Shown here one piece after another: positions 16,186 through 64,000 of a stretch of DNA of 64,000 nt. How positions within the stretch are numbered: position 1 is the stretch's first letter; each line of letters opens with the position of its first letter. The notes under the pieces were generated by a model. The model saw nothing but the letters and a program-made list of their open reading frames with translations. It was not told the origin of the DNA and did no database searches. The stretch covers positions 1 through 64,000 of the forward strand of contig JANQLN010000092.1 in the NCBI GenBank assembly GCA_028280575.1, written 5' to 3'. Made by a program: the position numbers and the translations under genes. The DNA comes from Clostridia bacterium (GTDB lineage Bacteria; Bacillota; Clostridia; Acetivibrionales; STF1-152).

Positions 16186-16644
16186 TTGCTTGTATTCATA
16201 CTTAGGTTTATCAGGATTGTTCTTTTAGAAGGACCTGTTGTTATGCTTTCCGTTTATATACTTTCAAATACAAAGCTTGACAAAAGAAAGATAATGATTA
16301 CCGGACTGAGCCTGGGTCTTTTGATTTTTGTAGTAAGGCTGCTGCCGATTCATATGGGTGTGCACACTATTTTACTTGCAATATACATAATACTGGTAGC
16401 AACCTATTATATTAAAATGAATATTTTTAAAGCTGTCGCATCTACCATATTATTTATCGTAGTTTTGCTTATATCTGAAGGGATAAGCATGATGTTATTT
16501 GATAGTCTGTTTAAGATTGAGACAAGAGAGTTTTACAGCGATAATATCATTGGGATATTGATAATGATACCTTCATTGATAATAGCGCTGCTTTTAGCCA
16601 TTTTATTTAATTTCATAAGAAAACGGTTAAGAAAGGGAATATAA
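16186..16644 (+). CDS. AgrC-like membrane sensor half without kinase domain
   Basis: A 152-residue, five-segment membrane protein. Its layout (VRLLPIHMGVHTILLAIYIILV, then NIFKAVASTILFIVVLLISEG) resembles the N-terminal sensor half of clostridial AgrC-type GHKL histidine kinases, but the frame stops after RKRLRKGI with no histidine box or ATPase domain. The start is placed at TTG 16186 because AAAGGGGG (16171-16178) precedes it; an upstream TTG at 16111 lacks an RBS. agrB follows after 3 bases, so the two are coupled. It could receive the AgrD peptide and pass the signal to another protein, or assist AgrB; both are inference. Confidence 0.6.
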   Translation: MLVFILRFIRIVLLEGPVVMLSVYILSNTKLDKRKIMITGLSLGLLIFVVRLLPIHMGVHTILLAIYIILVATYYIKMNIFKAVASTILFIVVLLISEGISMMLFDSLFKIETREFYSDNIIGILIMIPSLIIALLLAILFNFIRKRLRKGI

Positions 16645-39818: not shown

Positions 39819-40976
39819 ATGGTAAAAACAGAAGGGCTGCCGGAAAAAAATATTCCAATAACTGTTGTGAAAGCTGAAAGCAGTCATGACATAAGGGAAT
39901 TTGTAAATTTTCAATATAGACATTATAAAGGCAATAAAAATTTTGTCCCGCCTTTAAGAAAAGATATGAAAAGCATGGTTACCGGTAAAACAAACCCATT
40001 GTTTAAAAGAGGACCGGTAAGCCTGTTTATTGCAAGAAAAAATGGTCAAACCGCAGGCAGGATAGCAGCAGGCATAGATGAGGACCTAAATGCCGGGAAG
40101 AATAGCATGAATGGTTATATAACCCTGTTTGAATCCGTTGATGATTATGAAGTTGCCAAAATGCTTTTTGACAGGAGCACAGGGTGGCTAAAGGAAATGG
40201 GGATGACCATGGTTAAAGGGCCTGTTTCACCAACTGGAGGAGATGATACAAAAGGTTTGTTAATAGACTGTTTTGACCGTCCTCCTGTTTTAATGAATTC
40301 TTATAATTACTCCTATTACCCTGATTTTTTTGAAAAGTATGGATTTTGCAAGGACCTTGACTTATATGCATATTATTATGACGTTGAGAAATGTACTCAC
40401 AAAAGCAGGAAGAAGGTAGTTGAATATGCAATGAAAAGATATGAGTTCAAGGTTGACAGTATAGATCTTGATAATGTTGAAAAGGAAATTGTTGATATAA
40501 AGAGAATTCTGGATATAGCAATGCCGGAGGATTGGGATGACCTTGTCCCGCCTTCGCTTGATGAAATAAGGGGTTTTGCCGGCAGCTACAGGAAGCTGGC
40601 AGAACCGAGGATTATTTGTATTGCAAGGTCAAATGAAGGTACGCCGGTAGGTTTTCTGGTATCACTTCCTAATTTTAATGAGGTATTTATAAAAATGAAT
40701 GGAAGGCTATTTCCATTTGGATTTTTAAAATTGTTAAATTATAAAAAGCATATCAAAAGCGGAAGGACTTTTATATTGTTTGTAATACCTGAGTATAGAA
40801 AAAAAGGCGTATCGGGAGCCATGTTTTATAAGGTTATGAATGAGGCAAAAAATATGGATTATATATATGGGGAAGGTTCCACAATCGGAGAAACCAATTA
40901 TACCATGAGAAGGGATGCGGACAGGGCCGGGGGAGAGCATTATAAAACCTACAGGATATATGGGCTGGAAATATGA
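39819..40976 (+). CDS. GNAT-like acyltransferase-family protein
   Basis: A 385-residue protein of the YghO-like group of GNAT-fold proteins: an N-terminal half with NFQYRHYKGNKNFVPPLRKD and KGPVSPTGGDDTKGLLIDCF, and a C-terminal half with FILFVIPEYRKKGVSGAMFYKV, which looks like the acyl-CoA loop (R-x-x-G-x-x/A). The substrate is unknown; members of the group are found scattered in bacteria. GGGAGG precedes the ATG. proB follows after 36 bases on the same strand, so they may be co-transcribed, without an obvious metabolic link. Confidence 0.78.
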   Translation: MVKTEGLPEKNIPITVVKAESSHDIREFVNFQYRHYKGNKNFVPPLRKDMKSMVTGKTNPLFKRGPVSLFIARKNGQTAGRIAAGIDEDLNAGKNSMNGYITLFESVDDYEVAKMLFDRSTGWLKEMGMTMVKGPVSPTGGDDTKGLLIDCFDRPPVLMNSYNYSYYPDFFEKYGFCKDLDLYAYYYDVEKCTHKSRKKVVEYAMKRYEFKVDSIDLDNVEKEIVDIKRILDIAMPEDWDDLVPPSLDEIRGFAGSYRKLAEPRIICIARSNEGTPVGFLVSLPNFNEVFIKMNGRLFPFGFLKLLNYKKHIKSGRTFILFVIPEYRKKGVSGAMFYKVMNEAKNMDYIYGEGSTIGETNYTMRRDADRAGGEHYKTYRIYGLEI

Positions 40977-48400: not shown

Positions 48401-49372
48401 TTACGGTTTTTCCTCTAAAAATTCCAAAGGGTCTACGGCATTTCCGTTAATTTTTATTTCAAAGTGGCAGTGGACACCAGTGCTGACTCCTGTGTTTCCG
48501 GCTTTGGCTATGGGGTCTCCCCTTTTAACATGGGTACCTTTTTTTACAAGCAGCTTGGAATTATGGCCGTAAAGTGATACCAGGCCATGTCCGTGGTCTA
48601 TTTCTATACAGTAGCCATACCCTCCGTTGTATTTACTCACTGTTACAACACCGTCTCCTGAAGCATATACAGTTTGACCGTACTTTACGCCGATATCCAA
48701 TCCGTAGTGAAATTTACGCGTGCGTGTTATCGGATGGATCCTGTAACCATAATGGGAAGTTATTTCTCCTTCGGCAGGCCATGAGGTAGGGATGCATGCC
48801 AGGTAATTTTCAAGCTTTTCGGTGCTTTCCGACAAATCGAAAACTTCATTTGTATCATCCTTGTAAAGTGTATTCAGGTCCTTTAGCATTTCCCTCAGAC
48901 TCTTAACATCATTTGCGAATGTAGTTGTTTGACTCCTGTCAGTTCCTGAACGGCTTGCCAGGTTTGTGTCTATTCTGCCCAGAATATATTGGTTTGTGAT
49001 TTCCTTGTATTTATTCAAAACCTCATCTATTTTAGTACCTATGAATTGATCTCTTTCATCTATCTCAGATTGAAGGCTTTCTATTGACCGATTTTTATTA
49101 TCAATAATATCATTTTGTTGGAAAAGCAGGTCTTTTTGCTCAAAATTCAGTTCATAAAGTGCTGTAATATCTTCTTTCAGCTTGTGATTTTCTTCAACCG
49201 CATTTTTTATATATAAGCCAACACAGGCTGCTATGATAGTCAGTAAAAGTAATAGTGTTGAGATTTTTCCATATAAAGAAGAAACATTTATCGTCTTTAT
49301 TCTGGAAGGATAATGTGGGACAAGCATTATTGAAATAAACTTTCTTTTCTTTTTATCCTTGCCTTTAGTCAT
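48401..49372 (-). CDS. M23-family membrane-anchored peptidoglycan endopeptidase
   Basis: A 323-residue protein: basic N-terminus, one membrane segment (about residues 34-50), a long coiled coil (about 53-130, HKLKEDITALYELNFEQKDL and following) and a C-terminal LytM/M23 domain with HYGYRIHPITRTRKFHYGLDIG and HCHFEIKING (zinc-binding His and Asp). It faces the outside. The bactofilin gene follows, so the pair likely acts together on cell-wall shape. Catalytic motifs look intact. Confidence 0.93.
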   Translation of the reverse strand: MTKGKDKKKRKFISIMLVPHYPSRIKTINVSSLYGKISTLLLLLTIIAACVGLYIKNAVEENHKLKEDITALYELNFEQKDLLFQQNDIIDNKNRSIESLQSEIDERDQFIGTKIDEVLNKYKEITNQYILGRIDTNLASRSGTDRSQTTTFANDVKSLREMLKDLNTLYKDDTNEVFDLSESTEKLENYLACIPTSWPAEGEITSHYGYRIHPITRTRKFHYGLDIGVKYGQTVYASGDGVVTVSKYNGGYGYCIEIDHGHGLVSLYGHNSKLLVKKGTHVKRGDPIAKAGNTGVSTGVHCHFEIKINGNAVDPLEFLEEKP

Positions 49373-53408: not shown

Positions 53409-53497
53409 AAGGGATTTGCGTCGAAATTGAGCAGAATATACTTCTCATTTGCAGTGAGTTGCATCCACTTGCTTATGAGTTGCAAGGGAGTAAAACT

Positions 53498-56338
53498 ATG
53501 ACAAAACTTTGTTTTGGGACATTTTCACAGGTTCTCCGTTTGTGCAAATTAGAGAATGTTACAGATCGTATACTTGTTGGGACGATGACACGGACGGTAG
53601 ACCCAACTTGCCAATACATACACAAAGACAATGCATCAGCCGTTTCGCGACTGTTTAGTTGTACTGGGAATCTTTCGAATGGAAATATTACAGACAGTGG
53701 AAGTGCTGCAGTAAAGAAACCTGGGGAAAGTATCAGCAATGTTGTTAATGCTTCCCAGAAAGCCAATAAAGAGGATGTAGTTCAAGAGTTCCGTAAAAAT
53801 GTGATTCCTTTATTAGATGAAGACAAAAAAGAGCTGATCGTTCTCGCGCTGCTTGATATTATTGAAAAAGATGATGTCCTTGATGATGACAAGAAACTAA
53901 GCTTTGAAAAATATATTGGACAAACAAAAAACGCCCTGCTTTCACAGGGCGATTTTGCGTTGGATGAATTTTTAGCTGGTATCTTTCTTTATACTGTTGC
54001 GGCTGGAGTGATGAATACTGTAGGGAAGGGACCCGTGAAGCAAATAACTCCTGACTATATAAATGGGTTAAAGAATACAAAAAGAGTTAATGTCGTTGAC
54101 CAAGCTACTAGAGAACTTGAAGTTCCTTCAGATATAAAAGTGCCTGGAGAAACCTATCTTGCCAAGTCACATAATTCTTTTGATCAGCAAGTTGATGACT
54201 TAGAAAATACAATGCAACTTATAGTAGATAGTTTAGGTAAGAGTGCTACGAGAAAAATTAACAAAGATGATTGGGAATCTTTTTATAACGCTCTTTTTGA
54301 AACTGTCCGTTTAGGACGGTTACAAAGTAATGCCACGGGAGAGTTAAAAACCTTTATTGATAACATCACAAGTCTCTATAAAGATTGGGAAGAGGTTATG
54401 ATAAGAAGTCGTTCAAATCTATCTGTTGATAATGCCAGTGATGTATTTGGCAAAATAGTAAAAGAAGTGGACTGTTATATTACATTTAGAGGGATTCTAG
54501 TGAGTTCAGAATCTGACTCACCTCAAGAAGTGACTAAACAAAACTTTAAAGCGTACCTTCAAAGTGCGAAAGATAAATATAGCTCTATTAAGACATTACT
54601 TTATAACGACCAGCCTAAGCCTTTTTATGATTTCTACGTGTGCAATGATATTGAACGACGAATTCCTGTACATGGAAGATTCGGTACATCATACAAGTTG
54701 TCTACAATAGGAAATGTAACAATTAATAGTCTTTCAAAATGCTCTCGTTTTGTAATTCTTGCAGGAACGGGCGGACTTGGTAAATCGATGATGATGCGGC
54801 ACCTGTTGTTAAATTCCGTGGATAATTATGAAGAGATGCATATGATCCCTGTTTTCATACCACTCAAAGATTTTGATGAGATGTTTGACACTTTATTTGA
54901 CTACGCTTATTCAAAGGTTACGAGCCTTAGCAGTGAAATCACAGAGGATCAATTTGATGAAGCATTGAATAAAGGTAAGTGTTTGTTGTTATTTGACGGA
55001 TTAGATGAAATAGGGTCATCAAGTGCAAAGCGATTTGAACGTGATTTGGAATACTTTACCGACATGTATCCTAACAATTTTTTTGTGATTTCTTCACGCC
55101 CCTATCAGTCCTTTGTTTCATATTCGCGGTTTACTGTTCTGCAATTGAAACCTTTTTCAAAGAAGCAGGCTTTAATGCTGGTTGATAACTTAGAATTCAG
55201 GCCTGATGAACCAATTATTAAAGAAAAGTTTCGAACGGAATTGGACAATAACTTACATCGAACTCATAGAGCATTTATTGAAAATCCACTTTTGTTAACT
55301 ATTATGTTGATTACATTTGAGCAGTATGCAGAGGTGCCTTCAAAAATGCATGTGTTTTATAGAGAGGCATTCGGTGCTTTAGCCGTAAAACATGATGCTA
55401 GTAAAGGTGCCTATAAACGAATATTAAAGACTGGATTAAGTGCAGATAGATTTGCTGATTATTTCGCTGAAATCTGTTCACGTTCATATCATGACGAGAA
55501 ATTTGAGTTAACAGAGGAGGAGTTTGCGAAATACTACTATGTTTTAAAAGAGAGAGAAAAGTCAGGTGATAGTACTACTATTGCAAGTGATTATGTGTAT
55601 GATCTATGCTCCAACATGTGCCTGATGTATTTTGAAAGTGGGAAATATCATTTTACACACAGATCCTTTCAAGAGTATTTTTGTGCACTATATTTCTCAA
55701 AACAAAAGGACAAGACGCTAGAAAGTATCGGGAACTTTTTTGAAAATAGGCGTAGTCGTATGTTTGGAGATAAGACTTTCAACATGCTTTACGATATGAT
55801 CCCTGATAAAGTGGAAGAATATATATTTCTCCCTTTTTTAACTAAGCTTTATGAAGAATGTGATCGTGAAGAGGGTTACTGGACATTCCTAGAAAAGCTG
55901 TATCCTACTCTGAGATATGAAAATGGGGAAACAGATGAATATGTATCTAATTCATCGGAATCTTACTTGTTTGATTTCATTCAACAAATTAATCGTCTAT
56001 GGTTTCTAAGATGTGAAAATTTTCCACATTACGATTCCATAGTTTCAAATGAGTATGTCTATGTGATAGATGAAAACGAGAGCGAAACCCTCGTTAATGC
56101 TGAAGATGTGGATTCGGATTATAAGTATGAATACGGAGATCCTAATGTAGTCGGTTGGGTATATGAGATTGATGTTGAAGAAGTACGTAGAAATCCATTG
56201 GAATACTCAGAACTAATAAATCGCCTAGATGATGATGAGTTTGATGCTAAGAAATGCTATGTGCAGATGAGAGAATATCTTAGAGAACTTCAGGTAAAGC
56301 AAAGGCCAACCGGTGATAGTCTCTTTGATTTGTTTTAG
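53498..56338 (+). CDS. NACHT-domain STAND ATPase, probable anti-phage sensor
   Basis: A 946-residue NACHT protein, kin to eukaryotic NLRs and to bacterial bNACHT defence ATPases. Layout: an N-terminal region of about 420 residues with no recognisable catalytic domain, opening with a possible separate module (KLCFGTFSQVLRLCKLENV, about 1-60); NACHT ATPase with Walker A GTGGLGKSMMM (about 423-433), Walker B LLLFDGLDE (about 496-504) and sensor SSRPYQSF; and the winged-helix end motif FTHRSFQEYFCALYFS. The C-terminus is acidic and shows no clear LRR/TPR repeats. The start is set at ATG 53498 behind AAGGGAG. It lies beside a type III R-M-like cluster. Confidence 0.85.
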   Translation: MTKLCFGTFSQVLRLCKLENVTDRILVGTMTRTVDPTCQYIHKDNASAVSRLFSCTGNLSNGNITDSGSAAVKKPGESISNVVNASQKANKEDVVQEFRKNVIPLLDEDKKELIVLALLDIIEKDDVLDDDKKLSFEKYIGQTKNALLSQGDFALDEFLAGIFLYTVAAGVMNTVGKGPVKQITPDYINGLKNTKRVNVVDQATRELEVPSDIKVPGETYLAKSHNSFDQQVDDLENTMQLIVDSLGKSATRKINKDDWESFYNALFETVRLGRLQSNATGELKTFIDNITSLYKDWEEVMIRSRSNLSVDNASDVFGKIVKEVDCYITFRGILVSSESDSPQEVTKQNFKAYLQSAKDKYSSIKTLLYNDQPKPFYDFYVCNDIERRIPVHGRFGTSYKLSTIGNVTINSLSKCSRFVILAGTGGLGKSMMMRHLLLNSVDNYEEMHMIPVFIPLKDFDEMFDTLFDYAYSKVTSLSSEITEDQFDEALNKGKCLLLFDGLDEIGSSSAKRFERDLEYFTDMYPNNFFVISSRPYQSFVSYSRFTVLQLKPFSKKQALMLVDNLEFRPDEPIIKEKFRTELDNNLHRTHRAFIENPLLLTIMLITFEQYAEVPSKMHVFYREAFGALAVKHDASKGAYKRILKTGLSADRFADYFAEICSRSYHDEKFELTEEEFAKYYYVLKEREKSGDSTTIASDYVYDLCSNMCLMYFESGKYHFTHRSFQEYFCALYFSKQKDKTLESIGNFFENRRSRMFGDKTFNMLYDMIPDKVEEYIFLPFLTKLYEECDREEGYWTFLEKLYPTLRYENGETDEYVSNSSESYLFDFIQQINRLWFLRCENFPHYDSIVSNEYVYVIDENESETLVNAEDVDSDYKYEYGDPNVVGWVYEIDVEEVRRNPLEYSELINRLDDDEFDAKKCYVQMREYLRELQVKQRPTGDSLFDLF

Positions 56339-56674: not shown

Positions 56675-59600
56675 ATGCAAGTTCTCGATAATGTGAATAA
56701 AACAGTCAAGGATGATCTGGCCAAAACGGTTTCAAAGGGGGATAAAATTTCAATAGCTGCTGCTTGTTTTTCGATATATGCTTATGAAACTTTAAAAAAG
56801 CAATTGGACAACGTCGAAGAGCTGCGTTTTGTATTCACATCCCCTACATTTCTACAAGAGAAAGCTTCGAGAGAAAAACGGGAATTCTATATTCCGCAGC
56901 TTAATCGAGAGCGTTCTTTGTATGGAACTGAATTTGAAGTAAAGCTACGAAATGAATTGAATCAAAAGGCAATTGCTAAGGAATGTGCTGAGTGGATCAA
57001 AAAGAAAGTCTGCTTTCGTTCTAATGTTACTGGTGGGTCGATAGGAAGCTTTCTGAGCGTAGTCAAGCCAGACGAATCCATAGCTTATTCTCCACTAATC
57101 TCATTTACCACTGCAGATTTGGGGTGTGAACGCGGCAACAATATAATTAGCCTTGTCAATCGTATAGATGCACCCCTTGCTGATGAATATATAAAAATAT
57201 TTGATCAGATTTGGAATGACAAGAATCTTTTACAGGATGTTACGGACCAGGTAATTGATGGCATCACTGCTGCTTATAATGAAAACTCTCCTGAGTTTGT
57301 ATATTTTGTAGCAATTTACAATATTTTTAATGAATTTCTATCTGATATCAGTGAGGACGTGTTACCTAACGAAGCTACTGGATTTAAAGAATCCAAGATT
57401 TGGGGGAAACTCTATGATTTTCAACAGGATGCTACGCTTGCAATCATTAACAAGTTGGAAAATTTTAATGGCTGTATTCTTGCGGACAGCGTTGGTTTAG
57501 GTAAAACTTTTACAGCGCTTGCTGTTATCAAATATTACGAACTGAGAAATCGAAATGTACTTGTATTATGCCCCAAGAAGCTGGGAGATAACTGGCTGAC
57601 ATTTAAAGAGAACTATCTCAATAATCCTATTGCAGCAGATCGATTGAGATATGATGTTCTCTATCACACCGACTTGTCGCGCGAACGTGGAAAATCAGGG
57701 AACATTGATCTGGCTAAAATAAATTGGAGTAATTACGATCTAGTTGTTATTGATGAAAGTCATAATTTCCGTAATGGTGGTGATTATTCAGGGCGTGGCG
57801 AAAATAAACGTGAAAACCGTTATCTGCAATTATTAAATAAAGTAATCAGACAGGGCGTAAAAACCAAAGTGCTTATGCTTTCGGCAACGCCTGTAAATAA
57901 TGGTTTTTTTGACTTAAGACATCAGCTTGAATTAGCATACGAAGGCGATCCTTCACTTATAAATGACAAGCTGGACACTGCAAAGCCAATTGATGTTATA
58001 TTCCGAGGTGCACAAACAGCATTCAATAAATGGAGTAAACTGGACCCCGAAGAACGAACCACACAAAATCTCTTACGGTCACTTGATTTTGATTTCTTTA
58101 CAATGCTTGATAGTGTTACAATAGCTCGTTCAAGAAAGCATATAGAACAATATTATAATATCGAAGCGATAGGGAAATTCCCTGAACGGCTTAAACCACT
58201 TGCGCTACGTCCAAAGCTTACTGATTTATTAAATGCAATTGATTACGATGAAATCTACGATTTATTAATGAAGCTTAATCTTGCTGTGTACATACCGACT
58301 GACTTTTTGCTTGATAGTAAAAGATATAAGTACATTGATTCAAACGTAAACATTGATCGTGCAGGGCGTGAAATAGGGATTCGCAGGTTGATGTCTATTA
58401 ATCTCTTAAAAAGGCTTGAGAGTTCAGTTGTTTCTTTTCGTATTACACTTGATCGTGTTCGGGATATTATAAATGGAACCATTGAAGCTATTGATGCATA
58501 TGAAAAGGGAAATAGAAAAATCCTAAATACTCAAGAAATCGTAGAAACTGACTTTGACGGAGATGACCGAAATACCACTTTCTTTGGAAATAATACTAAG
58601 AAGATTGATATTGATGTAGGGGATATGGACTATGTTACATGGCGGGAAAAGCTATCAGAGGATTCTGAAATACTGCAACTCATATCATCTATGATTCATG
58701 ACATTACCCCGGATCATGATACCAAATTACAAACTCTTATTGATTTGATTGCTGAAAAGATTCAGAATCCTTTTAATGATGGAAATAAAAAAGTGCTTAT
58801 TTTTTCAGCATTCTCTGATACGGTAGATTATTTATATGCTGGGGTAGCACCAATTATTGAAGAACGATTTGGACTCCATACAGCAATGATCACAGGAACA
58901 ACTCAGGGAAGAACCACTGTGAAGCTTCCACGTAAGGACATGAATACAATCCTTACGCTGTTTTCACCTCGGTCCAAAGACAAAGAGCTATTGATGCCGA
59001 ACAAACCAGTAGAAATAGATATTTTAATTGCGACGGATTGTATATCCGAGGGTCAAAACCTGCAGGATTGTGACTATTGTGTGAACTATGATATTCACTG
59101 GAATCCTGTTCGAATTATTCAGCGTTTTGGGCGTGTTGACCGTATTGGCAGTCAAAATGAGACAATCCAGCTTGTGAATTTCTGGCCAAATATTGGACTG
59201 GATAAATATCTTGAGTTAAAAGGCCGTGTAGAAACACGTATGAAAGCCTCTGTTATGACTTCCACAGGTGATGATAATCCCATTGATTCAGATGAACTGG
59301 GGGATTTGGAATATCGTAAAATGCAGCTAGAGCGGCTTCAGAATGAGGTTGTAGATATTGAGGATATGCAGAATGGTGTTTCCATAATGGATCTAGGTTT
59401 AAATGAGTTTAGGCTGGATCTTCTCGATTATGTTAAGACGCATGATAATCTGGACAAAGTACCTTTTGGACTTCACGCAGTAGTGAATGGAAATGAGAGC
59501 GCACCAAAAGGTACAATTTTTATCCTGAAAAATATAAACACGAATATAGACCACCATAATAAAAACCAACTCCATCCATTCTATATGGTATATGTACGGG

Positions 59601-59905
59601 ATGGTTCTGTAGTTCATATTGACCATCTGCAACCGAAAAAGCTTCTTGATGTTTTTAGACAGCTATGTAAGGGAAAATCAGAACCACTGCTTGACCTTTG
59701 CAAACAGTTCAATGATGAAACGAAAGATGGAAGAAATATGAGACATTATTCAGACCTTTTATATTTTGCTGTCAAAGCAATTGTGGATCTCAATGAAGAT
59801 GATTCTATCGATAGCTTCCTATCCGGCAAGCAGATATCCTTAGCAGAGAATACAATTGATGGGTTGGATGATTTCGAATTGGTCTGCTTTGTGAATGTGA
59901 GGTGA
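56675..59905 (+). CDS. SNF2-type helicase with PLD-like N-terminus
   Basis: A 1076-residue putative defence helicase. The N-terminus (about residues 1-160) resembles PLD-like modules but lacks HxKx4D motifs, so it is probably a binding, not cutting, domain. The SNF2 core has Walker A LADSVGLGKTFTAL (about 269-282), DESH box VVIDESHNF (about 357-365), SATPVNN, and the helicase C motifs KVLIFSAFSDT and RIIQRFGRVDRIGS (motif VI). Similar proteins are seen beside type III-like Mod/Res genes. GGGGG precedes the ATG. The DUF4391 gene follows after 10 bases, so they are one operon. Confidence 0.9.
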   Translation: MQVLDNVNKTVKDDLAKTVSKGDKISIAAACFSIYAYETLKKQLDNVEELRFVFTSPTFLQEKASREKREFYIPQLNRERSLYGTEFEVKLRNELNQKAIAKECAEWIKKKVCFRSNVTGGSIGSFLSVVKPDESIAYSPLISFTTADLGCERGNNIISLVNRIDAPLADEYIKIFDQIWNDKNLLQDVTDQVIDGITAAYNENSPEFVYFVAIYNIFNEFLSDISEDVLPNEATGFKESKIWGKLYDFQQDATLAIINKLENFNGCILADSVGLGKTFTALAVIKYYELRNRNVLVLCPKKLGDNWLTFKENYLNNPIAADRLRYDVLYHTDLSRERGKSGNIDLAKINWSNYDLVVIDESHNFRNGGDYSGRGENKRENRYLQLLNKVIRQGVKTKVLMLSATPVNNGFFDLRHQLELAYEGDPSLINDKLDTAKPIDVIFRGAQTAFNKWSKLDPEERTTQNLLRSLDFDFFTMLDSVTIARSRKHIEQYYNIEAIGKFPERLKPLALRPKLTDLLNAIDYDEIYDLLMKLNLAVYIPTDFLLDSKRYKYIDSNVNIDRAGREIGIRRLMSINLLKRLESSVVSFRITLDRVRDIINGTIEAIDAYEKGNRKILNTQEIVETDFDGDDRNTTFFGNNTKKIDIDVGDMDYVTWREKLSEDSEILQLISSMIHDITPDHDTKLQTLIDLIAEKIQNPFNDGNKKVLIFSAFSDTVDYLYAGVAPIIEERFGLHTAMITGTTQGRTTVKLPRKDMNTILTLFSPRSKDKELLMPNKPVEIDILIATDCISEGQNLQDCDYCVNYDIHWNPVRIIQRFGRVDRIGSQNETIQLVNFWPNIGLDKYLELKGRVETRMKASVMTSTGDDNPIDSDELGDLEYRKMQLERLQNEVVDIEDMQNGVSIMDLGLNEFRLDLLDYVKTHDNLDKVPFGLHAVVNGNESAPKGTIFILKNINTNIDHHNKNQLHPFYMVYVRDGSVVHIDHLQPKKLLDVFRQLCKGKSEPLLDLCKQFNDETKDGRNMRHYSDLLYFAVKAIVDLNEDDSIDSFLSGKQISLAENTIDGLDDFELVCFVNVR

Positions 59906-59915
59906 GGGAAGGACA

Positions 59916-60524
59916 ATGTTTGGACTACCTAAATCTACTAAAATAAGTAAGCAATTACCCAAGAAAGCAATATTTCAGAAGTTTAAACCAAGCACCGCTG
60001 ATAGAAAATTATTTGATGAGCAAATAAACCGTCTTTCAATCGTTTCGGAGATATCTCCACAAACGGTCAGTATAGCAGCTAGTGAAGAAGTTACAGCAAT
60101 TTATATTATTTTGGTTCAGATGAAGACGGTGGAGTGTGATAAAAAGAACATCAAACTACTATCAAAGCTCATAGACCAGAATATGCTCTTTGCTTTGCAA
60201 TATGAAGACACTGTAAAGTTTGCTGTATTTTTTGCAGATAGAGTGTTGATGTCTGAAAGTAAACCTATTAGCGAGTGGGTTCTCAAATTAAAAGGTCTTG
60301 ATCTAGAAGCCACATGGGATATGCTCATTGCTGATATTTGTGGAATTGAATCTACAGATGGTAAAGACATAGATGAAATCATTATTCATAATGCATTGAA
60401 AGAGAAACTTAAGAAACAAATTGCTAGACTTGAAAAAAAAGCTATGAATGAAAGGCAGCCTAGACGTAAATGGGATCTGGCTGAACAAATAAAACAGTTG
60501 AAAGAAGAACTAAAAGGAGTGTAA
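59916..60524 (+). CDS. DUF4391-family protein
   Basis: A 202-residue protein whose position and shape fit DUF4391, a family that I recall mainly next to type III-like Mod and SNF2 helicase genes. The N-terminus opens MFGLPKSTKISKQLPKKAIF; the middle has EVTAIYIILVQMKTVECDKK and YEDTVKFAVFFADRV; the C-terminus is a basic coiled coil (KLKKQIARLEKKAMNERQPR). The final A of its TAA is the first base of the mod ATG (overlap TAATG at 60522), indicating translational coupling. Enzymatic role unknown. Confidence 0.75.
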   Translation: MFGLPKSTKISKQLPKKAIFQKFKPSTADRKLFDEQINRLSIVSEISPQTVSIAASEEVTAIYIILVQMKTVECDKKNIKLLSKLIDQNMLFALQYEDTVKFAVFFADRVLMSESKPISEWVLKLKGLDLEATWDMLIADICGIESTDGKDIDEIIIHNALKEKLKKQIARLEKKAMNERQPRRKWDLAEQIKQLKEELKGV

Positions 60525-62458
60525 TGATGGATAAACAAGAGAGATTAACAATGCATACATCGAATCTTGCAGACAATAATTTTAGTGTCCTTGCTAAAAT
60601 GTTTCCCAATGCAGTGACAGAGACAATAACAGGTTATGATGAGGATGGCGAGCCTATAGTTGAAAGAGCGATTGATGCAGATGTACTGGCCCAGGAAATA
60701 AACACACATGTAGTTTCAGGGAAAGAAGAGCGCTATCAGTTTACATGGCCGGATAAGAAAAAATCAGTCCTATTGGCAAATGCACCAATAGCTGCTAATT
60801 TACGTCCTTGTCGTGAGGAAAGTGTTGACTTTGATAAGACTGAGAACCTTTATATAGAAGGTGACAATCTTGATGTATTGAAGTTGCTCAGAGAAACATA
60901 TTTGAATCGAGTGAAAATGATCTATATAGATCCCCCATATAACACAGGAAAAGATTTTGTTTATGAGGATGATTTTGGTGAAGAAACTGGTCAGTTCCTA
61001 CGTCGTGATAATCAATATGATGAGCAAGGCAATCGTCTAACTTCAAACTTTGACAGCAACGGGCGTTTCCATACTGACTGGCTAAACATGATGTATTCAA
61101 GATTGAGAGTTGCGCGGGATTTGTTAACTGATGATGGTGTAATATTTATTAGTATAGATGATAATGAAGTTGAAAATTTGAAAAAGATATGCAACGAGAT
61201 GTTTGGGAAATCTAATTTTGAAGGACATATTCACTGGCGTAGAAGGCATAACCAGCCAAATGATAAAACTAAAATGATAGGTTTAGTAGCAGAGCATATT
61301 CTTGCCTATGCAAAAAATAGTAGATTTCTTAGAGAAAGTGGTGTAGGGAAAATTGATATTACCGGTGATTTCTCAAATCCTGATAATGACCCACGTGGAG
61401 ATTGGGCAAGTAAACCTTAGAAAGTAGGATCGGATCAATCGGGTAGCAGATATATAATTACTACACCAACTGGTATTCAACTAGATGAAGAATGGATGGG
61501 AGAAGAAACGACATATAAGTCTTTGCTTTCTGATGGTAGAATCATTTTTCCGAGAGGTAGAGATGGCATGCCTCGAAAAAAGTATTATCGATCTGAACGC
61601 GAAGAGGAAGGGCAGTGTGCAACAAATTGGTGGACACATGATATGTTTGGACACAATCAAGGAGCTAATGATTGTATTACAAGTCTTTTTGGTGTGAAAA
61701 ATGTTTTTAGCAATCCAAAACCTATAGAACTTATAAGAGGGCTTATTCAAGTAGCTAATGTAAAAGATAATGATATAGTTTTAGATTTTTTCTCTGGTGC
61801 GGCAACAACAGCCCATGCAGTTATGCAAATTAATAATGAAGATAGAAAAAATAGACGCTTTATCATGGTTCAATTACAGGAAAATTTAGATAAAACTATA
61901 TTATCGGCTGATGCTAAAACTAAAAAATCTATAAAAGTGGCCATTGACTTTTTGGACTCGATTAACAAGCCACATTACATTACTGAAATTGGTAAAGAAC
62001 GTATTCGTCGTGCTGGAGCGAAAATAAAAGAAGAAATAGGTTTGACAGCACAAAATCTTGATACGGGATTCCGTGTTCTCAAACTAGATAGCAGTAACAT
62101 GAAAGAAGTTTACTACACACCTGAAGAATATTCACAAACGGGTTTCAATTTGGAAGGATTTATGGATAACATTAAATCTGATCGTTCAGATGAAGATTTA
62201 TTGTTCCAAGTAATGTTAGATCTTGGCATTCCCCTTTCAGCTAAAATTGAACAGGATGGGAAAATATTTAAAGTTAATGATAACTACCTAATTGCTTGCT
62301 TCGATAGAGTTGATACATCTATGATTACTGAAATTGCTCAAAAACAACCTTATTATGCTGTTTTCAGAGATAGCAGCTTTGTAAACGACAGTTCTCTAGT
62401 AAATATTGAACAGATTTTCAACACATACAGTTCAAGTACCATAAGGAGGGTAGTGTAA
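60524..62458 (+). pseudogene. mod: Type III DNA methyltransferase Mod, interrupted by an in-frame amber codon
   Basis: The frame 60524-62458 would encode a 644-codon beta-class N6-adenine methyltransferase, the usual size of type III Mod. The DPPY motif (IYIDPPYNTGKDF, residues 136-139) lies before the stop and the SAM-binding motif DFFSGAATTAHA (from about residue 421) after it, in the order expected of type III Mod. Codon 299 is TAG (61418-61420) and translation would resume in the same frame with KVGSDQSGSRYIITTPTG, which reads like an uninterrupted family member; one G-to-A change (TGG to TAG) would explain it. The product as written lacks SAM binding and is probably inactive. A sequencing error or read-through are alternatives. 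The RBS is AAAAGGAG. Confidence 0.85.
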
Positions 62459-64000
62459 ATGAAGTTTAAATTTAAAATACAACCTTTCCAGTCAGAGGCT
62501 GCAGAAAGCATTGTAAAAGTATTTTCTGGTCAACCAAAACAAGGGTTCTTAAAATATCGTCGAGATATTGGTAAACGAAAAGCTCAGGCTACTATCTATG
62601 AACAGGATACTGAGTTTGTAACAGGTTACCGTAATGCCAATGTAGAGCTAAGCAAAGATCAATTACTCAAAAACATTCGTGTTGTGCAGACAGTTAACAA
62701 TATAAAGAATTCCACTGCTTTAGAAAAAGGACTTGGTCTGGTATCACTAGATGTTGAGATGGAAACTGGTACGGGTAAGACATATGTGTATATTAAGACA
62801 ATGTTTGAGCTCTATCAGGCGTACGGCTGGAGTAAATTTATTGTTGTTGTGCCAAGCATAGCTATTCGTGAAGGCGTTAAGAAATCATTTGAAATGACTC
62901 AAGAACACTTTATGGAGCTTTACGGCATGAAGGCTCGGTTCTTTGTGTATAACTCTTCAAACTTACATCAACTAGATGAATATTCACAGAGCTCCGGTAT
63001 AAATGTAATGATCATTAATACGCAAGCCTTCAATACAACGATGAATGAGAAGAAAAATGTTGAAGGCAGATTTGGAAATCAGGCGGCTCGTATCATCTAT
63101 ACCAAACGTGACGAGTTTGGGTCACGTAGACCAATTGATGTTATAAAGGCGAATCGCCCGATAATTATTTTAGATGAACCACAAAAGATGGGTGGAACAG
63201 CAACCCAGAGTGCACTAAAGAAGAATTTTAATCCCCTCTTTTCTTTGAATTATTCGGCAACCCATAAAACATCACATAATCTTGTTTATGTTCTTGATGC
63301 TCTGGATGCCTTTAAAAAGAAGCTTGTCAAGAAAATAGAGGTAAAAGGATTTGAACTCAAAAATCTAAGTGGAACCAATAGATATATGTATCTAGCTGCC
63401 ATTGTCATTGATCGCAAGAAGCCACCTCGCGCTCGCTTGGAGTTTGAAGTAAAACGCGGAAGTGGGATTAGACGAGAAATGCAGCTACTGGAAGTTGGCG
63501 ATAGCTTATATACTTCATCTAAAGGTTTGGAGGAATATAAAGGCATCTCAATTGCCGAAGTCGATCCCATATGTTCGATAGTTACTTTTTCAAATGGAGA
63601 CACTTTGGAACCTGGTGAAGCAAGCGGAAATATAAATGAAGATGATATTCGCCGTATACAAATCCATGAAACAATAGCTTCACATTTTGATAAAGAAGAA
63701 AAGTTATTCGAGCAAGGCATCAAATGTCTTTCTCTGTTCTTTATTGATGAGGTGGCCAAGTATCGTCAGTACGATGAGGATGGCAACGAAATTGTAATTG
63801 AATATGGCCGGATATTTGAAGAAGAATACACCGCTACTTTAAATGAGCGTTTGACGCTTTTTCCTACTGAATACCAAAAATATCTAAGAGAAATTGAAAC
63901 TTCAGAAACCCATCGGGGCTATTTCTCCATAGATAAAAAAGGTAGAGCGATCAATAGTAAGGTAAAACGTGGAAGCGAGTTTTCAGATGATATTACCGCT
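62459..64000 (+). CDS. res: Type III restriction endonuclease Res subunit (partial, runs off window)
   Basis: At least 514 residues of a Res-type helicase/nuclease, cut by the window end. Seen: IQPFQSEAAESIVKVF opening, Walker A METGTGKTYVYIKTM (about residues 102-116), the DEPQ box IIILDEPQKMGG typical of type III Res (about 236-247), and SATHKT. The C-terminal nuclease domain lies outside the window. AAGGAGGG (62444-62450) is at good distance and the ATG starts directly after the Mod stop. In type III systems Res needs Mod to find its site, so this subunit is likely idle if Mod is broken. Confidence 0.9.
   Translation, partial: MKFKFKIQPFQSEAAESIVKVFSGQPKQGFLKYRRDIGKRKAQATIYEQDTEFVTGYRNANVELSKDQLLKNIRVVQTVNNIKNSTALEKGLGLVSLDVEMETGTGKTYVYIKTMFELYQAYGWSKFIVVVPSIAIREGVKKSFEMTQEHFMELYGMKARFFVYNSSNLHQLDEYSQSSGINVMIINTQAFNTTMNEKKNVEGRFGNQAARIIYTKRDEFGSRRPIDVIKANRPIIILDEPQKMGGTATQSALKKNFNPLFSLNYSATHKTSHNLVYVLDALDAFKKKLVKKIEVKGFELKNLSGTNRYMYLAAIVIDRKKPPRARLEFEVKRGSGIRREMQLLEVGDSLYTSSKGLEEYKGISIAEVDPICSIVTFSNGDTLEPGEASGNINEDDIRRIQIHETIASHFDKEEKLFEQGIKCLSLFFIDEVAKYRQYDEDGNEIVIEYGRIFEEEYTATLNERLTLFPTEYQKYLREIETSETHRGYFSIDKKGRAINSKVKRGSEFSDDITA

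Follow-up and report, generated by a model that had tools for sequence, protein, structure and literature searches.

Does the amber codon within the type III methyltransferase (Mod) gene of this Clostridia bacterium mark a gene that has been lost, and if so, how recently and at what cost to the restriction system it belongs to? To answer this, we examined the divided frame, its relatives and its neighbours within the window (i.e., the whole 64-kb stretch of DNA analysed; the Mod, Res, DUF4391 and SNF2 features below lie on the + strand).

The amber codon and the divided mod frame

The TAG at 61418-61420 is codon 299 of the frame starting at 60524, and reading it as a residue yields one 644-residue Mod frame that ends with the TAA at 62456-62458. 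Under the standard code, the 5' part (60524..61420, 298 aa) runs from the N-terminal domain through motif IV (DPPY) into the target-recognition domain (TRD); the 3' part (61421..62458) carries the remaining TRD, the DFFSG motif and the C-terminal domain. An earlier note on this DNA had described two same-phase frames (60524-61420 and 61496-62458, the latter of 320 aa) with 25 open codons between them and a lone TAG, located after DPPY and before the S-adenosylmethionine (SAM) motif, all of which the sequence confirms: the TAG is the sole stop of the read-through frame, which includes no frameshift. A type III Mod is expected in a single open reading frame, which is here interrupted at codon 299. 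We scanned the 64 kb for stops with same-phase open frames of 109 codons or more on each side (311 and 345 for the Mod TAG), which returned three further stops, at 48401, 16642 and 40974. The first is the border between an M23 peptidase gene and a bactofilin gene, and the other two (16642-16644 and 40974-40976) have long same-phase frames on both sides to which no gene was assigned. The TAG at 61418 is thus the only stop in the window recognised as splitting a gene.

Both parts are recognisable as type III Mod. The upstream and downstream parts match positions 1-110 and 129-213 of the Pfam N6_N4_Mtase profile, and positions 2-285 and 317-619 of the 621 in the PADLOC MTase_III profile (PDLC03634), which they together match along its whole length. 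The DPPY (codons 136-139) is the expected D/NPPY form of motif IV and is invariant in our alignment (A1), and in the read-through translation the SAM motif I (DFFSG, codons 421-425) lies downstream of the TRD, i.e., in beta-class order. Since the TRD of EcoP15I Mod is inserted between the DPPY and SAM parts of the methyltransferase domain (PMC4490356), codon 299 falls inside the TRD, and the truncated product would therefore also be without most of its DNA-reading domain. The Mod sequence matches the structures 6k0w (E = 1.3e-66) and 4zcf (E = 7.5e-49), and the fold predicted for the read-through protein, of moderate confidence (mean pLDDT 77), matches 4zcf_B (E = 4.6e-36). Overall, the gene resembles the Mods of EcoP15I (4zcf), 6k0w and Mbo45V (7dsu) in sequence, in fold when read through, in the order DPPY, TRD, SAM motif, and in having a Res gene directly downstream (62459..64000 in the window, to 65536 on contig C99), which is intact and encodes a 1025-aa helicase-endonuclease with ResIII and RE_endonuc domains. 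Unlike these Mods, it has a TAG in its TRD and is accompanied by SNF2 and DUF4391 genes. To judge from sequence, we therefore regard it as a broken member of the type III Mod family.

A mosaic Mod and its conserved tryptophan

Identity to relatives calculated for each 20-codon block suggests that this Mod has two origins. Codons 1-220 and 501-644 are mostly 70-100% and 65-95% identical, respectively, to the same three homologues (L025, L027 and L029). Across codons ~221-420 (61184..61783, edges approximate), identity to these three drops to mostly 5-45%, and another set (L022, L023, L056, L155, L005 and L006) reaches 55-100% in most blocks. In their N parts, L005 and L006 share only ~40% identity with the window Mod, and L155 sits on an IMG/VR contig. 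The right edge of the segment is not sharp, since codons 461-480 (61904-61963) resemble none of the nine homologues compared (≤30% identical). As read from these block identities, the Mod is a mosaic, with a backbone from one group of relatives and a TRD imported from another through exchange with distantly related Mods. The note's view that the gene was recently inactivated finds support below, but it overlooked this imported TRD around the stop, and the mosaic is more interesting than the nonsense codon itself.

Exchange of TRDs is known among type III mod alleles such as modA and modB of Neisseria and Haemophilus. It is also described for the allelic variants of ModS (PMC8125046). The window Mod is similar to these alleles in its kept backbone and swapped recognition region, but differs in that its TRD group spans backbones only ~40% identical as well as a viral contig.

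The import also identifies which relatives are informative about codon 299. Across all homologues the residue at this position varies; among those sharing the TRD it is Trp in 7/7, with TGG in all six codons that were read. The suggestion that the stop arose from TGG by a one-base step thus holds up in the alignment. A different frame boundary in homologues had also been considered, and none is split or stopped at this position, nor does any other Mod among the ~100 aligned have a stop within the gene body. One apparent stop, in L052, was rejected as it is located ahead of the start codon of that gene.

Age of the lesion and alternatives to gene loss

If the stop is real, it appears young. Of the 87 residues that do not vary among six relatives, the read-through TRD retains 85, a number within the spread seen for intact members, and over 149 conserved columns the window Mod departs at three, which is the median of the other family members. 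Compared with L025 and L027, the N part has a dN/dS of 0.05-0.08, and codons 400-644, which take in the recombined stretch, one of 0.16-0.18. For the C-terminal domain alone, identity between the window Mod and L025 (0.88) is not below that between L025 and L027 (0.85). The gene offers 258 one-step changes to a stop, so that ~0.035 neutral changes per site would suffice to create another stop 95% of the time (equal rates assumed), and the absence of a second stop thus argues for a young lesion. Taken with residues conserved as in intact genes and the lack of any further lesion, this suggests that the lesion is either recent or not real. An excess of window-specific changes in codons 400-644 (Tajima chi-square 5 to 10, outgroup L029) was considered as a sign of relaxed selection and rejected: it is absent when L032 serves as outgroup, and the C-terminal domain proper (codons 521-644) has no such excess, so that the recombined stretch explains it better. 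Near-perfect conservation is, however, equally expected from a base-call error or from a stop that is decoded, and both have to be weighed.

A sequencing, assembly or mixed-population artefact, with the gene in fact intact, is compatible with a draft genome of 143 contigs and a contamination estimate of 2.6%, as well as with a Mod that otherwise looks functional by its conserved residues; searches turned up no other record of this DNA. Yet the change is a clean base substitution and not a homopolymer-run indel, and no other gene was recognised as stop-split in the 64 kb (leaving aside the two same-phase pairs described above), and we consider an artefact unlikely.

Partial or full decoding of the TAG by a suppressor tRNA, pyrrolysine or leaky read-through would likewise leave a full-length Mod. 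Basal read-through of TAG does occur in bacteria, and the downstream half of Mod is still conserved. Against this, TAG is an ordinary stop here (it ends 9 of the 36 window ORFs), no homologue has a stop at the position of codon 299, and the check for amber suppression that had been called for offers the idea no support. The best score in the genome for PylS (TIGR02367) is 27.7 bits for a cut-off of 178.15, which one of 14 control genomes exceeded, and neither the whole-genome pattern scan nor the 39 tRNA places read by ARAGORN include a tRNA with a CTA anticodon, in a search that is strong but incomplete (150 of 263 candidates scored, several common tRNAs missing from the list). A tRNA-like match at C61:16398 was rejected as a suppressor, being tRNA-Arg(TCT). 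Decoding is accordingly a quite improbable explanation. Even harder to credit is a role for the TAG as a brake, in which trace amounts of full-length Mod made by low-level read-through would keep the system dormant or slow to establish.

The two halves might instead work as a split enzyme, codons 1-298 assembling with a second polypeptide started at the ATG at 61496 or at 61568. Both halves do remain open, and split methyltransferases exist in other classes. However, the first in-frame ATG past the stop (61496..61498) has weak Shine-Dalgarno pairing (-1.4 kcal/mol vs. -8.4 to -11.6 at the SNF2, DUF4391, Mod and Res starts), and the next better one (61568, -7.2) would cost a further part of the TRD. 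Moreover, the break falls inside the TRD, and no homologue is split at this position, which makes a working split Mod very unlikely.

Lastly, the stop could be one state of a reversible on/off switch, phase variation being common among type III mod genes (PMC3874151; PMC2667262). Phase-variable mod genes carry simple repeats or alternate cassettes; here we found no tandem repeats in the module and only short, weak inverted repeats, and the genome has no second copy of the window Mod or its TRD for recombination. The switch proposed in the earlier note is thus without support, and we consider it very unlikely.

Broken mod genes are not new in themselves. In type III loci of Mycoplasma agalactiae, mod homologues have premature stops (PMC9465063), which likewise remove Mod from a gene that is still recognisable, but those stops stem from changes in GA-repeat length and are thought phase-variable, whereas the window Mod has a point substitution and no repeats. 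Closer to hand, in genome G004, from the same order, Mod is disrupted at the SAM motif by an IS21-type insertion (L160, 1481-3624) that carries IstB and rve transposase ORFs and, in the Rfam search, no intron. Both flanks of that Mod are still recognisable, as they are here, but the break is an insertion rather than a nonsense codon. The event at codon 299 would be an ordinary kind of gene loss.

The surrounding module and the probable consequences of losing Mod

The Mod gene is the third of a conserved four-gene module, which begins with an intact HKD+SNF2 helicase-like protein (56675..59905, 1076 aa), followed by an intact DUF4391 protein directly upstream of Mod (59916..60524, 202 aa). The order SNF2, DUF4391, Mod, Res occurs in 55 of 99 fetched loci (a count including one reverse-strand locus and one that also has a NACHT gene), and the true share may be higher because contig ends cut some loci. 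In the literature searched, DUF4391 was named in a single paper and in none alongside “type III restriction”, and the role of the SNF2 and DUF4391 genes looks undescribed there. In relatives, other genes are found between Mod and Res: a RhuM-family gene in L045 (7898-8953), a DUF1016/YhcG nuclease gene in L079 (7899-8987) and, by eye, RhuM-like genes in L028, L037, L042, L076 and L080. In the window, the gene directly upstream of the module (53459-56338) encodes a NACHT protein whose N-terminal part is HamA-like and whose C-terminal domain is SNaCT14, and an Rfam search had no match near the locus.

With Trp in all seven same-TRD relatives, no other lesion and an intact Res, recent inactivation is the reading we favour. 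Building on what is directly observed (a unique stop, a mosaic gene, a conserved Trp and intact neighbours), we put at roughly three in four the probability that this chromosomal type III mod gene underwent a recent single-base nonsense mutation, after a TRD exchange, and that the system is silenced. The gene would have gained its TRD from distantly related Mods, and a conserved Trp codon inside the imported segment would then have become TAG through a single-base change. Translation would end at codon 299, leaving a fragment that keeps DPPY but is missing the SAM motif, the C-terminal domain and most of the TRD, and that would neither recognise sites nor methylate them.

In a model reported in a review, site recognition is the task of Mod, which then guides Res to its target, and in experiments Res became more abundant when Mod was expressed, an effect postulated to involve folding and protection from proteolysis (PMC3874151). 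Since Res would need Mod both for site recognition and for its cellular level, it should be idle here, and the cell would be neither modified nor restricted by the system, with no self-cutting. The proposal that losing Mod silences rather than poisons the system thus fits the literature.

If the stop is real, this would be a type III system at an early stage of decay, in which Mod has gone before Res, the order to be expected if Res does no harm on its own. Neither such decay nor the mosaic Mod alters the picture of type III systems; the mosaic documents TRD exchange across backbones only ~40% identical, one of which belongs to a viral contig.
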